A stretch of DNA of 36,101 nucleotides from an uncultured Spirochaetaceae bacterium (GTDB lineage: Bacteria; Spirochaetota; Spirochaetia; Sphaerochaetales; Sphaerochaetaceae), in assembly GCA_944388955.1 (NCBI GenBank), contig CALXKJ010000019.1:1-36101 (forward strand), written 5' to 3'. How positions within the stretch are numbered: position 1 is the first letter of the stretch; every line of letters starts with the position of its first letter. Below the pieces are notes generated by a model. The model made no database searches. It was not told the DNA's origin and was given only the letters and a program-made list of their open reading frames with translations. Both the position numbers and the translations under genes were made by a program. Positions 1 through 31,195 of this stretch are shown piece by piece.

Positions 1-936
1 TCGATGAAGGAGAAGTGCACGATGCGCTATGATGTGCGCACTGTGACATTAAGAGGCAGTCAGCTCACATTCAGCACCTGTGACAAGAGAATAAAGACAA
101 TCATATCAATTCCTGAGTTCTTCTCTGAACGTTATCCTGAACCGGAAGGCTGGAAGCTCAAGGGAGCGAACGTAGGAATTGACAGGAAGGGACGGGTATT
201 CGTCAATCTCATCTACGAGTGCCCTGATTACGATACAGTCGAGAACGATGGGAGGATAGTGGGTCTGGACAGGGGTGTCTACAACATTGTTACGACCTCT
301 GACGGAGTCCACTATGGAGCAAAGGATGCAAGGCGGGTTAAGAGGAAATACAGCCATGTGCGCTCTGAGTTGCAGAAGAAAGGCACTCGCAGTGCGAAGA
401 GGAGGCTTAAAGCCATCTCCAGCTGCGAGAAGAGGTTTGTTCAGGACCAGAACCACTGCATTTCCAAGGAGCTTGCAAACACTGATGGGGATGTATCCGT
501 ATACGTCCTTGAGGATCTGTCATCCATGAACTTGCTGAGGCTCAGGGGAAAGAGCAACAAGACCATGAGGAAATGGCTATCCAGCTGGTCATACTCCGAC
601 CTTGAGTTTAAGCTGATCTACAAGTGCCAGAGGAACGGCATAAGGGTGGAATTCGTGGATGCGCGCTATACGAGCCAGAAGTGCTCGGTGTGCAAGACGA
701 TAGACAAGGCTTCAAGGAAGGGGAACAGATACACATGCAGGCATTGCGGCAATAATATGCATGCAGATACGAATGCCGCCATCAACATCCGCGACAACTA
801 CATCACCCGGGTCGGGCAATCCGGGCAGGCTGCAGTCAATCAGCCGCATGGATGGGGTGCCACAGGCAGACCGGAAACGGAGCCTGTGGAGAAAACACTC
901 ACGTCCAAGCCTTCAGGCTTGCCTGAAGGTTGTTGA
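1..936 (+). CDS. tnpB: TnpB RNA-guided nuclease, 5'-truncated by the window edge
   Basis: The frame is open from the window edge, so the ATG at 4 is probably internal; about 310 residues of a protein usually near 370-400 aa are present. TnpB proteins are RuvC-type endonucleases guided by the omega RNA made from the element's right end. All three RuvC acidic residues are in place: Asp in GLDRG (268-270), Glu in VLEDL (511-513) and Asp in HADTNAA (766-768). A zinc ribbon with two CxxC pairs (CSVC, CRHC) lies between the last two. The tail after the last RuvC motif is low in conserved features and overlaps the predicted RNA. The visible part has no frameshift, so the nuclease may be active if the missing N-terminus is intact. 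Confidence 0.88.
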   Translation, partial: SMKEKCTMRYDVRTVTLRGSQLTFSTCDKRIKTIISIPEFFSERYPEPEGWKLKGANVGIDRKGRVFVNLIYECPDYDTVENDGRIVGLDRGVYNIVTTSDGVHYGAKDARRVKRKYSHVRSELQKKGTRSAKRRLKAISSCEKRFVQDQNHCISKELANTDGDVSVYVLEDLSSMNLLRLRGKSNKTMRKWLSSWSYSDLEFKLIYKCQRNGIRVEFVDARYTSQKCSVCKTIDKASRKGNRYTCRHCGNNMHADTNAAINIRDNYITRVGQSGQAAVNQPHGWGATGRPETEPVEKTLTSKPSGLPEGC

Positions 937-937
937 C
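787..937 (+). ncRNA. Putative omega (right-end) RNA overlapping the tnpB 3' end
   Basis: In IS200/IS605 elements the guide-RNA scaffold covers the tnpB 3' end and right end, and the guide is the flanking DNA. Three hairpins can be read here: CCCG/CGGG (806-809 with 822-825), an 8-bp stem CCACAGGC/GCCTGTGG (860-867 with 882-889) enclosing a CCG-GAAA-CGG tetraloop hairpin, and the right-end stem at 910-929. The segment recurs without the rest of tnpB at 29184-29334. The expected guide would start at about 938 (ATAAACAAGG...), which is MATE gene sequence. The 5' limit is a guess set by the shared block. Confidence 0.6.
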
Positions 938-1417
938 ATAAACAAGGTTGATGAAATTGACGACTGTGGCGGCGATGAGTATGCGGAAATAGGCAATTCC
1001 CTCATCAATGAATTCCACTGGTGTGCTTATTGCTTTAAGAATGATAGGCACAAATGGAATCATGAGAAGGAATAATGCAGACATAACCAAGAGCAGCCTG
1101 ACCATGGTGTTCATCAGCTCTCCCGCTTTCTCCTTGTCTCCAGCACCATAGGCTCTGTTTATTAAAATCATGGAGCCTGTGATGAGTCCGGAGCCGATGG
1201 AATTCAGAATCATCCTCAGCTGTGCCATATAGCTTACCGTAGATACCGCAATTGTCCCGATATGGCTTGCCATTATTGTGTCGAGGATAGAGAAAACGCA
1301 GTTGAAGAACGCAAAAATCGCCAGCGGGGTACCTACCTTCAGTATAATCCGGTAGTAATTTCCCGATAGTGAATATTCCCTGAATTCTGTTTCAGACAGC
1401 TTTCTCATTTCAGGCAT
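938..1417 (-). pseudogene. MATE-family efflux transporter, 5' fragment cut by the tnpB element
   Basis: About 160 residues of a multidrug and toxic compound extrusion (MATE) transporter remain, against roughly 450 for the family. The N-terminal part (GTPLAIFAFFNCVFSILDTI, then GAGDKEKAGE) is typical, with four hydrophobic segments. The reading frame then enters the right end of the tnpB element after NLVYVN and stops some ten codons later at 899. More than half of the 12-helix protein is missing, so it should not transport. There is no convincing ribosome-binding site before the ATG at 1417; the ATG at 1408 is an alternative start. Confidence 0.85.
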
Positions 1418-27770: not shown

Positions 27771-28037
27771 TCATCGATAGATACCTCTTCGATGCCCTAT
27801 ATCAACAGCAACAATCACAAGTTCTTCATCCATGATATCCACAATAAGCCTGTAGTCACCTATACGATATCTCCATAGCCCCTTCAGATTGCCTGCAAGC
27901 GCCTTACCTTGGCGTCGTGGATTATCTGTATTCTCAAGATTCTTCAAGATCCAACGGGAGATTATGCGTTGGGTGACAAAATCCAGCTTGTGGAACTTCT
28001 TCTTGAATCCCTCGCTTACTTTTATTGAGTAGCTCAT
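27771..28037 (-). CDS. relE: RelE-family mRNA-interferase toxin
   Basis: An 88-aa toxin of the RelE/ParE superfamily with LKGLWRYRIGDYRLIVDI and a basic C-terminus (GHRRGIYR). RelE toxins cleave mRNA in the ribosomal A site; the Arg and Tyr residues of the YRIGDYR motif and the C-terminal Arg/Tyr pair are those expected for catalysis. It is encoded downstream of its antitoxin with an ATGA overlap, so translation is coupled. Length is usual for the family. Confidence 0.9.
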   Translation of the reverse strand: MSYSIKVSEGFKKKFHKLDFVTQRIISRWILKNLENTDNPRRQGKALAGNLKGLWRYRIGDYRLIVDIMDEELVIVAVDIGHRRGIYR

Positions 28038-28273
28038 AAGGTTTCCTTATTGATTCCACATTCTTTCATAAGATCGTCAAAGCTGCTGAGGCGCAGTGTT
28101 CCGGACTTCTTCTGTGCTAGATAATCCTCCGAGACTTTCATGTCATACTCATCTTCCAGTTTCTCAAATGTGAGTCTCTTAATAAGGGCAGACATATTGC
28201 AGTTATAGACTCTTGCAGCATCCTCGAGGACTGCTTTCTCCTCATCACTGACACGAAGACTGATTATACTCAT
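28034..28273 (-). CDS. relB: RelB-type (DUF6290-like ribbon-helix-helix) antitoxin
   Basis: The 79-aa protein starts at ATG 28273, which has AAGGAG seven bases upstream; reading further upstream would run through the promoter. MSIISLRVSDEEKAVLEDAA is a ribbon-helix-helix DNA-binding start, followed by NMSALIKRLTFEKLEDEYD and a toxin-wrapping C-terminal part. It should repress its own operon and neutralise the RelE protein encoded 4 bp overlapped downstream. The dyad in the promoter fits that autoregulation. Confidence 0.88.
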   Translation of the reverse strand: MSIISLRVSDEEKAVLEDAARVYNCNMSALIKRLTFEKLEDEYDMKVSEDYLAQKKSGTLRLSSFDDLMKECGINKETL

Positions 28274-28292
28274 TTCAATACTCCTTAGATTC

Positions 28293-28321
28293 AATATAGC
28301 ATACATTTGTATTACAAGCAA
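28293..28321 (-). promoter_or_regulatory. relBE promoter with overlapping operator dyad
   Basis: On the minus strand TTGCTT (28316-28321), 17-bp spacer and TATATT (28293-28298). The perfect dyad TTGTA-N-TACAA (28307-28317) lies in the spacer and overlaps the -35 box, a suitable place for repression by the RelB ribbon-helix-helix protein. Confidence 0.65.
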
Positions 28322-28408
28322 ATATGCTTATCTTGCATCTTTATATTTGATAGGGAGTTCTGCTGCCGTATACACAAGCTCAGTTTCTTTGTTATCTGAC
28401 ACTGTGAC

Positions 28409-29188
28409 TTACTCCCTGGCTTTCTCTTCCCAACCTTCAATAAAGGATTGGACTTCTTCTTCCAGAGCTTTCTTTTCGGGAAGATAGAGAACATATTCTG
28501 AAGCGAAGATTCTATTCTCAAGTCCTCCGAGAACATACTCAATCTTTGCAGATGGCTTATCAGTACAGAGAATGATACCGATTGGATCGTTATCATCGGG
28601 ATCATTGACTTCTGCTTTGTAATAGTTGAGATACATATTAAGCTGACCTACGGCAGCAGGGAGCGGTTTTCTTGTCTTCAGCTCAATTATCACATAGGTC
28701 CTGAGAATCTTGTTGTAGAAGACCATATCAGCATAGTAATGCTCATTATCGAACGTGATTCTCTGCTGTCTTCCTACGAACATGAATCCTTTTCCAAGCT
28801 CAAGAAGGAATTTCTCAATATGATTGATAAGAGCATCCTCAAGATCAGCTTCCAGCACAGGTTTGTTCTCAGGTAGCCCCATGAACTCAAATACATAAGG
28901 ATCTTTCAGAATATCTTCAGGTTTCTCTATTTCCTGTCCTTTCTCGGCAAGTCTTTTTACTTCTTCCTTGTTCTCTTTTCCACGGGAGAGCAGAAGACGC
29001 TCATATAGCGATGAATCAAGCTGCCGTTTCAGCTCTCTTACAGACCACTTTGAAGCAATGCATTCCTCCTCATAGAAACTGCGTTTATTATCATCAGAGA
29101 TTGTCAGAAGTTCACAGTAATGTGACCAGCTCAATTTAACAGACTGTGTCTGTTGATTTGGATAGGATAGGAACAGACGGCGCGTCAA
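28409..29188 (-). pseudogene. YhcG/DUF1016 PD-(D/E)XK nuclease, N-terminally truncated
   Basis: About 254 residues of a YhcG-type protein (usually near 340-350 aa) remain. Present are LSWSHYCELL, WSVRELKRQL and the C-terminal nuclease domain with YADMVFYNK, VIIELKTRK (Asp and ExK) and VGQLNMYLNYY. The N-terminal DUF1016 part, about 90 residues, is gone: the gene begins at the right end of the tnpB-type remnant. The final TTGAC of that element gives a TTG start in frame (first residues MTRRLFLSYPN), with GAAGG three bases upstream. So the nuclease half could still be made. The C-terminus is intact. Function of the family is uncertain, often tied to defence loci. Confidence 0.85.
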
Positions 29189-29334
29189 CGACCTTCAGGC
29201 AAGCCTGAAGGCTTGGACGTGAGTGTTTTCTCCACAGGCTCCGTTTCCGGTCTGCCTGTGGCACTCCATCCATGCGGCTGATTGACTGCAGCCTGCCCGT
29301 GTTTCTGGACCCGGGTGATATAGTTGTCGCGGAT
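29184..29334 (-). mobile_element. Solo right end of a tnpB-type element
   Basis: 143 of 151 bases match 787-937, by hand alignment. It carries the tnpB 3' end (frame open through KTLTSKPSGLPEGR) and the 9-bp right-end palindrome (29192-29211), but no left end and no other tnpB sequence. The homology starts abruptly within the abiEi remnant and stops at the yhcG remnant. Confidence 0.88.
29184..29334 (-). ncRNA. Putative orphan omega RNA
   Basis: All three hairpins predicted for the 787-937 copy are kept: the 8-bp stem with its GAAA tetraloop hairpin and the right-end stem are unchanged, and the CCCG/CGGG stem is unchanged while five of the eight differences fall in its loop. The guide position would begin at 29183 reading leftward (GCGCCGTCTG...), which is yhcG sequence. 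A promoter for such an RNA is not evident; it might be read from the abiEi side. Confidence 0.45.
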
Positions 29335-29904
29335 TTAATAGTTTCGTAAGAAAATCTAGGTTCGTTGAGTGATACAAAGGTGAGACAAATTGTATATCAT
29401 CTTTGTTAAGTGACCAGAAATCTTCTTCATCTATTCTCAGGTCTTCGAAAAGAAGATATTCAAACTCCTTCATGTTCTTAGCAGGGGATATGGTGTATAG
29501 CTTGTCGCATAATGCTTTTTCAGGAGCGGCAATATGATAAGAGTATTCACCGTCGGTTTTTGCTATGACACCATATGGGAAAGCTGCTTTCGGGATATCT
29601 CGAAACGTATAAGTCCCGAATCGGTTTATGAAGGTTTTTGTCTTTCTCTTGCCGAATGTTGCTGATGTATATACATATACAGCTTCTGGAATCAGGTTGT
29701 AGATGTATAAAGCATAATCAAAAGACAGGTATGATGGATTATATATCTGTATGGCAAGGTATGAAGGATTGACTTCAGGATCATCCTCATAGAGACCTCT
29801 GGTGATCTTGATGAGCTTACCTTCCCTTGTAAGTCTCATGATCTTGCCTTTCACATCTGAATATGGTTTGTATTTGTTTTCTAACTCTGCGGTAGAATTA
29901 TCAT
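29335..29904 (-). pseudogene. AbiEi-type (type IV toxin-antitoxin) antitoxin, broken at both ends
   Basis: The reading frame has the winged-helix start of AbiEi-like proteins (ENKYKPYSDVKGKI, LTREGKLIKITRGLYE) and the following antitoxin core (NPSYLSFDYALYIYNLIPEA, YHIAAPEKALCDKLY). It ends after LTKLLN where the tnpB right-end remnant begins; the frame then runs 44 codons through that remnant and stops at 29195. At the 5' end the only ATG with a good ribosome-binding site (TGGAG, ATG at 29904) is out of frame by two bases with the protein, which suggests a frameshift. The cognate AbiEii nucleotidyltransferase gene is missing. Internal GTG (29854) could give a shortened product. Confidence 0.75.
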
Positions 29905-29980
29905 ATTTACTCCAGTTAGTTGTATATTCTCCACTTATTGGAGCAAATCAAGGATTTTGATTAATTTCTACTGAATTCAT

Positions 29981-30006
29981 TTTCTCTGAAATCAAATTCA
30001 GAAAGA
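29981..30006. repeat. 26-bp direct repeat with internal palindrome, copy B
   Basis: Identical to 26295-26320. The sequence before it also resembles the promoter of copy A but the -10 box is not kept (TTCATT in place of TATAAT). It lies in the 244-bp gap between the abiEi remnant and the Fic gene, so it may be a leftover of a lost ATPase gene's promoter. Confidence 0.7.
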
Positions 30007-30034
30007 TGGAGAATTACTTGTGTTTCACTTCACA

Positions 30035-30065
30035 TTGTTTGTGCAGATATGCACTCTAGTAGAAT
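30035..30065 (+). promoter_or_regulatory. Candidate promoter of the Fic gene with spacer palindrome
   Basis: TTGTTT (30035-30040) and TAGAAT (30060-30065) with a rather long 19-bp spacer. The spacer contains the dyad GTGCA-GATA-TGCAC (30041-30054), which could be an operator. Consensus-based guess. Confidence 0.4.
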
Positions 30066-30092
30066 GGTTTGTCCCAATCAACAGTGTTGTAA

Positions 30093-30123
30093 TCTCCATC
30101 ATTTTATGGTTAAATGATGGAGA
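30093..30123. repeat. Perfect 12-bp inverted repeat in the Fic gene leader
   Basis: TCTCCATCATTT (30093-30104) and AAATGATGGAGA (30112-30123) are exact inverted copies around a 7-nt loop, ending 14 bp before the AGGAG of the Fic gene. It could be a dimeric repressor site or an RNA hairpin affecting translation. There is no T-run, so a terminator is unlikely. Confidence 0.8.
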
Positions 30124-30148
30124 TATAGTATGAATGAAGGAGATTTGC

Positions 30149-31195
30149 ATGAGAAGATTCGATTATGTGGAAACCTCAAAGAAACTACTTACACCGGAAA
30201 TTGTCCAGATGCTGACCTCTCTTCATGAACATAAGGGACGGCAGGATTTATTTCTGGAAGCTCATATAGATGACTTGAAAACACTTCTGGATGTGGCAAT
30301 GATTCAAAGTACCGGAGCCTCGAACAGAATAGAAGGTATCTTCTCTACGGATAAACGTCTGGAAGAGCTTGTTAAGCAGAACGCTGAACCTCGTAATCGC
30401 TCTGAACAGGAGATTGCGGGATATAGGGAAGTTCTAGCGACAATTCACGACAGTTATGAATATATAACACCACGTCCAAATGTCATTCTGCAGCTGCATA
30501 AGGAGCTATATTCCTATTCAGATGCGGGCACTGGCGGTGTTTATAAGAATTCAGATAATCTCATTGCTGAAATGGATGCGGAAGGCAAGCAGAGGGTGAG
30601 ATTCGTGCCTGTTCCAGCTTGGCAGGCTGCAGAAGCTATGGATGAGATGTGCTTCAGCTTCAATGAAGAATGGAATGCTGGCAAGATAGATAAGCTGCTT
30701 CTGATTCCTATGTTTATTTTGGATTTCCTATGCATTCATCCTTTTTCTGATGGTAATGGACGTATGAGCCGCCTTTTGACATTGCTGCTTTACTATAAGG
30801 CAGGTTTCATAGTTGGAAAGTACATTAGTATCGAAATGCTTATTGAAAAGAGCAAAGAAACATATTATGAAGCATTGCAGTCAAGTTCTTTTGGATGGCA
30901 TGATGGTGAAAACAACTATGAGCCATTTGTAAAATATTATCTTGGAGTTGTTTTAAAAGCATATAATGAGTTTGAATCTCGGGTTGAGTATCTAAGATAC
31001 AAAGGCCTCTCCAAACCGGATCGGATCAAGGCTGTGATCGGACAGAATGTTGGGAAAATTACAAAGAAGGAGATTATGGCTCTCTGTCCCGATATAAGCA
31101 GGGTGACTGTGGAGAGAACCCTTACGGAGCTGGTAAAGAGCGGATATATCGTAAAAGTCGGAGCAGGGCCATCTACAGGGTATATAATTCCTTGA
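30149..31195 (+). CDS. Fic-family AMP transferase with winged-helix C-terminus
   Basis: A 348-aa class II Fic protein. The N-terminal Fic_N part holds the inhibitory helix motif SNRIEGI (S-x-x-x-E-G type), which blocks ATP binding until released. The catalytic loop is HPFSDGNGRMSR, a full match to HPFx(D/E)GNGRxxR, so it should AMPylate or otherwise modify a target. The last 70 residues look like a winged helix (ITKKEIMALCPDISRVTVER). The start at 30149 follows AGGAG by six bases; ATG at 30134 would contain that site. It stands alone, convergent with the LPP20-like gene pair, and closes the accessory island. Confidence 0.9.
   Translation: MRRFDYVETSKKLLTPEIVQMLTSLHEHKGRQDLFLEAHIDDLKTLLDVAMIQSTGASNRIEGIFSTDKRLEELVKQNAEPRNRSEQEIAGYREVLATIHDSYEYITPRPNVILQLHKELYSYSDAGTGGVYKNSDNLIAEMDAEGKQRVRFVPVPAWQAAEAMDEMCFSFNEEWNAGKIDKLLLIPMFILDFLCIHPFSDGNGRMSRLLTLLLYYKAGFIVGKYISIEMLIEKSKETYYEALQSSSFGWHDGENNYEPFVKYYLGVVLKAYNEFESRVEYLRYKGLSKPDRIKAVIGQNVGKITKKEIMALCPDISRVTVERTLTELVKSGYIVKVGAGPSTGYIIP

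Follow-up and report, generated by a model that had tools for sequence, protein, structure and literature searches.

A probable left-truncated relic of a tnpB-carrying IS200/IS605-type element between abiEi and DUF1016 genes in an uncultured spirochaete

In ISDra2-type elements, the closest described TnpB/omega-RNA systems, the scaffold in the right end overlaps the 3' end of tnpB, an AT-rich 5-base motif stands before the left end, and the flank of the element is taken as the guide (PMC8612924, PMC10278001). TnpB proteins also process longer transcripts to omega-RNA (PMC10278001). Reduced forms of IS605 elements have been described as well. The palindrome-associated, ends-only unit of Halanaerobium hydrogeniformans has lost most of tnpB while keeping its last bases, the whole right end and the left end (PMC7290912), and Borrelia plasmids carry free-standing IS605 stem-loops, which are short hairpins reported as conserved across plasmids and lie in some cases at the 3' ends of genes (PMC2775950). 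The locus described here, a solo 151-bp block between an abiEi-like gene and a DUF1016/YhcG gene, shares with the ISDra2 type a parent family with TnpB domains, the overlap between right-end scaffold and tnpB, and the motif-and-flank arrangement, but it differs in that tnpB and the left end are missing beside the solo, in that the motif is TTTAT and not TTGAT, and in that the guide function is a prediction. Like the Halanaerobium unit, the solo keeps the last tnpB bases and a complete right end, although it lacks the left end that both this unit and one copy in a relative (L098) retain; like the Borrelia stem-loops, it is a spirochaetal end structure lacking a transposase gene, but a single, unshared 151-bp scaffold rather than a conserved short hairpin. 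The solo fits the kind of IS605 remnant already known from Halanaerobium and Borrelia.

The window, that is, the whole stretch of DNA analysed, is the complete 36,101-nucleotide contig C19 of a 2.1-Mb genome in 33 contigs (G000), and its features are collected in Table 1. The original prediction, made from the sequence alone, was that the 151-bp block closing the element copy at the start of the window (copy A) recurs at 29184-29334 on the minus strand with 143 of 151 identical positions, and alignment bears this out (E = 1.4e-63, far above chance). That it recurs alone is correct in one sense, since no tnpB or left end lies beside the solo, but the genome holds four copies of the block and not two, the further ones adjoining tnpB at contig ends (C13 and C1). 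Identity to these three tnpB-linked copies supports the proposal that the block is the right end and guide-scaffold region of a tnpB element; a search of the block against Rfam matched no family. The eight substitutions between solo and copy A fall at block positions 15, 28, 29, 31, 34, 35, 70 and 145. Five of them lie inside the first hairpin, as had been counted, yet not all are in its loop, and one, which is also present in the C1 copy, breaks a pair of the consensus structure. Seven of the eight are common to the C1 and/or C13 copies, leaving position 15 (C to T) as the only change private to the solo among the four. Its closest copy is that on C1 (146/151), and it has an exact run of 109 bases in common with that on C13.

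Table 1. Features of the window at the two block copies (position 1 is the first nucleotide of contig C19)
Feature	Position	Strand	Basis
3' part of tnpB, truncated at the contig start; N-terminal part on C28	1..936	+	Cas12f1-like_TNB and OrfB_IS605 domains; 77-base overlap
Right end of copy A with scaffold region; overlaps 3' end of tnpB	787..937	+	Block alignment, structure
matE-type gene interrupted by copy A	938..1417	-	Frame restored on joining the C28 flank to 938
DUF1016/YhcG nuclease gene without its 5' part	28409..29183	-	Pfam YhcG_C 1.3e-55; DUF1016_N from profile position 74 of 137
Would-be guide GCGCCGTCTGTTCCTATCCT, the DUF1016 target-site flank	29164..29183	-	Same sequence, with few changes, after TTCAT/TTTAT in relatives
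Solo right end with omega-RNA scaffold region (block positions 1-151)	29184..29334	-	Identity to copies, pairs kept, no left end or tnpB body adjoining
abiEi/tnpB codon-region junction (inferred deletion junction)	29334..29335	.	Element homology stops; abiEi upstream
AbiEi-like antitoxin gene ending a few residues short, without abiEii	29335..29854	-	PADLOC AbiEi 5.1e-58, profile 21-190 of 192

The parent of the block is a ~1.5-kb tnpB element of IS200/IS605 type. The end of contig C28 is identical to the start of C19 over 77 bases, and joining the two yields a 1,505-bp element composed of a left end, a 414-codon tnpB beginning near position 260, and a right end, with the last 151 bp overlapping the tnpB 3' end. 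An intact TnpB had been placed at the very start of the window; the reading frame there is open at its 5' end, but it becomes complete once joined to C28, and the intact 414-aa TnpB obtained in this way confirms that the genome carries the gene. Its Pfam domains (PF07282, 2e-20, and PF01385, 6e-8) give the protein the RuvC-type and zinc-finger TNB composition of the family, and it matches the solved TnpB chains 9nzp (9.9e-21) and ISDra2 8bf8 (1.8e-4). Between the ends there is only tnpB and no tnpA (Y1 transposase), and tnpB-only elements are a known subgroup of the IS200/IS605 type; two Y1 genes are present elsewhere in the genome, and their loci (L223, L224) did not match the element profile. 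All readable left ends are directly preceded by TTTAT, nine in relatives and four in the genome itself (C28, C7 and both ends of C22). When the flanks of copy A are joined (C28 flank and window position 938), a continuous MatE frame of 403 codons is restored after TTTAT, from which it follows that this copy inserted precisely 3' of the fixed motif and without target duplication. Contig C22 ends on both sides in an element left end (L220, L221), which brings the left ends in the genome to at least four. The tnpB-element repeat is the site of many contig breaks in the genus, and since several genomes are fragmented there, the counts of full and truncated copies given below are lower bounds.

Read along the minus strand, the solo locus runs from the AbiEi-like gene through block positions 1 to 151 directly into the DUF1016/YhcG fragment, and neither a left end nor a tnpB body was found beside 29334, the solo therefore having one end only. 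Five relatives (L065-L069) have a DUF1016 gene that continues through the site without interruption, with TTCAT or TTTAT followed by GCGCCG or GCGTCG. Because these genes span the site, the comparison of sequences shows an insertion with 29184 as the true element end and makes the supposed guide an ordinary target flank; that this flank differs from the one after copy A had been correctly noticed. Complete abiEi-abiEii pairs are present in relatives L071-L074, and abiEii is absent at the solo locus. In the AbiEi-like region (29335-29960, minus strand) the ATG at which homologues start does not lie in frame, and an in-frame start first occurs at 29854, as a GTG, so that the gene may be decaying. 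The surroundings (27771-31195) form a defence/toxin-antitoxin-like run that includes the DUF1016 fragment, AbiEi and a Fic-domain gene, with a small RelE/ParE-like pair, recognised by eye, at 27771-28321.

We consider it very probable that the solo block is a relic, truncated on the left, of an IS200/IS605-type element with tnpB and, as such, ordinary transposon debris. The element inserted inside a DUF1016/YhcG gene after a TTTAT-type motif, and one or more deletions, which we infer, would then have joined abiEi to the tnpB 3' region, removing abiEii, the 5' part of DUF1016, the left end and ~1.35 kb of the element. No genome with the full element at the solo site was found. The relic is young, hence a scaffold that is still nearly perfect, and if read-through from abiEi transcribes it, the RNA could be bound by TnpB encoded elsewhere in the genome. 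As the genome retains no TAM-flanked site that matches its guide, the relic is most likely inert. We also considered that the left part of the solo had moved elsewhere and rejected this, as the left-end flanks on C7, C28 and C22 show, as inspected, no DUF1016 5' part.

The genus holds many truncated and decaying copies, which counts for the reading of the solo as a relic. The block is present in 31 of the 48 genus genomes searched, a genus of chicken-gut spirochaetes whose named carriers are spirochaete MAGs (Candidatus Ornithospirochaeta, Candidatus Aphodenecus and uncultured Spirochaetales), and in none of the 52 searched outside it. A consensus structure of 45 pairs was computed with RNAalifold from 39 tnpB-linked copies, which keep between 42 and 45 of these pairs; the solo keeps 44, in agreement with the claim that its stems are preserved. 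With one private change in 151 bases, however, this near-perfect scaffold says only that truncation was recent. Among the relatives' copies without tnpB, L098 keeps 43 pairs and both L124 and L150 keep 41, whereas the others without recognisable tnpB keep 18 to 35, several of them having lost the terminal hairpin. Fragments without the right end are also present in the genus, and the many partial matches of 122-127 bp (block 30-151) were rejected as solo units, as they lie at contig ends. Most solo copies in relatives thus show loss of stems, the very observation that the original prediction had named as speaking against it.

That prediction had seen in the solo a possible guide unit, detached from its transposon and with potential for domestication or regulation. 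In a fully working form, a transcript from the abiEi promoter would be processed, loaded by the TnpB of the full copies and used to cut intact DUF1016 alleles, for example in incoming DNA, a scenario that we regard as very unlikely. It agrees with the intact scaffold, with the presence of an intact TnpB gene, with the position of the block downstream of abiEi on the same strand, and with the processing of longer transcripts by TnpB proteins (PMC10278001). Yet its guide is a plain insertion flank, and the proposed genome search for targets next to the TAM returned no second site for GCGCCGTCTGTTCCTATCCT behind a TTTAT-like motif in this genome, the best other site (C6:100329, 17/18 matches) being preceded by AGGAT, not TTTAT, and not being a DUF1016 gene. 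The relatives' intact DUF1016 genes, moreover, differ from the guide at several positions (about three of the first 20 bases in L065 and L066, by eye), no solo was found at the abiEi/DUF1016 site in relatives, and a promoter and terminator scan gave sites at chance level. Conservation of unit and guide across relatives, as in TldR-like or other regulatory systems, was not found, and with the other solos decaying, domestication is not supported. In principle, abiEi transcription could extend through the block, and TnpB could mechanistically use the scaffold in trans, though this is not indicated. A genus-wide version, to which we give equally little credence, holds that solo scaffolds are kept as trans guides for resident TnpB, with truncations stopping just 5' of the scaffold and abiEi read-through RNA targeting DUF1016 alleles. 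Of 23 left breakpoints of right-end-bearing truncated copies, 8 (L003, L098, L122, L124, L128, L135, L138 and L150, with mutually dissimilar upstream flanks) cluster in a 43-nt interval directly 5' of the scaffold (p = 0.0001 against a uniform distribution over the element and 0.03 within its last third). The interval was picked after seeing the data, short fragments tend to be missed, and two of the 23 copies (L115, L141) share their upstream sequence. This bunching is mild and is not predicted by plain random decay, a point against the relic reading; we treat it as a lead, not a result.

There are two further explanations. An assembly artefact, in which flanks were swapped inside the shared repeat, is suggested by the exact run in common with C13, which at 109 bases exceeds the 77-base contig overlap, and by the other contigs that do break in the element. 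A stretch of 109 bases is, however, within the span of ordinary reads; the contig is unbroken here, the solo has its own combination of variants, and an exchange of flanks would still place a left-truncated block behind abiEi, so that we find this hardly credible. The least credible account is that a non-autonomous mini-element, an ends-only unit, transposed whole into the DUF1016 gene. Units of this build exist, both in a relative, where L098 consists of left and right ends with the tnpB middle deleted, and in Halanaerobium (PMC7290912), but at the solo no sequence separates abiEi from block position 1, and the DUF1016 gene lacks its 5' part, a loss that clean insertion would not cause. The solo was rejected as a mini-element for want of a left end.

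As a relic, the solo provides a clean example of how a tnpB element breaks down, in which the end with the guide scaffold can persist after the nuclease gene is gone. The family, with its TTTAT motif, its full, mini and decayed copies and 48 searchable genomes, is well suited to the question of how often a solo scaffold remains usable. If such scaffolds do load TnpB in trans, transposition would produce dispersed guides, although nothing here shows loading.

Other copies and fragments of the family illustrate further forms of reduction. L098 (G010:C14, locus positions 1266-1505) is a compact mini-element, in which the left end, preceded by TTTAT, is joined to the last ~190 bp, the tnpB middle having been deleted at a shared TGCGGCA-like stretch; with this motif and 43 of the 45 scaffold pairs kept, it could move and guide in trans. 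At G000:C12:61192-61227 (L005, about positions 1493-1528) we observed a perfect 36-bp palindrome, GTCAACGACCTTCAGGC-TT-GCCTGAAGGTCGTTGAC, the right half of which equals the last 28 bp of the element right end and which may be an end fusion or a terminator-like repeat. Finally, in the genome of one relative (G061), four dispersed stretches of 21 bp (C36:3721, C32:9625, C14:53217 and C8:47765) exactly match the terminal hairpin region of the element's right end and are possibly freed hairpins.
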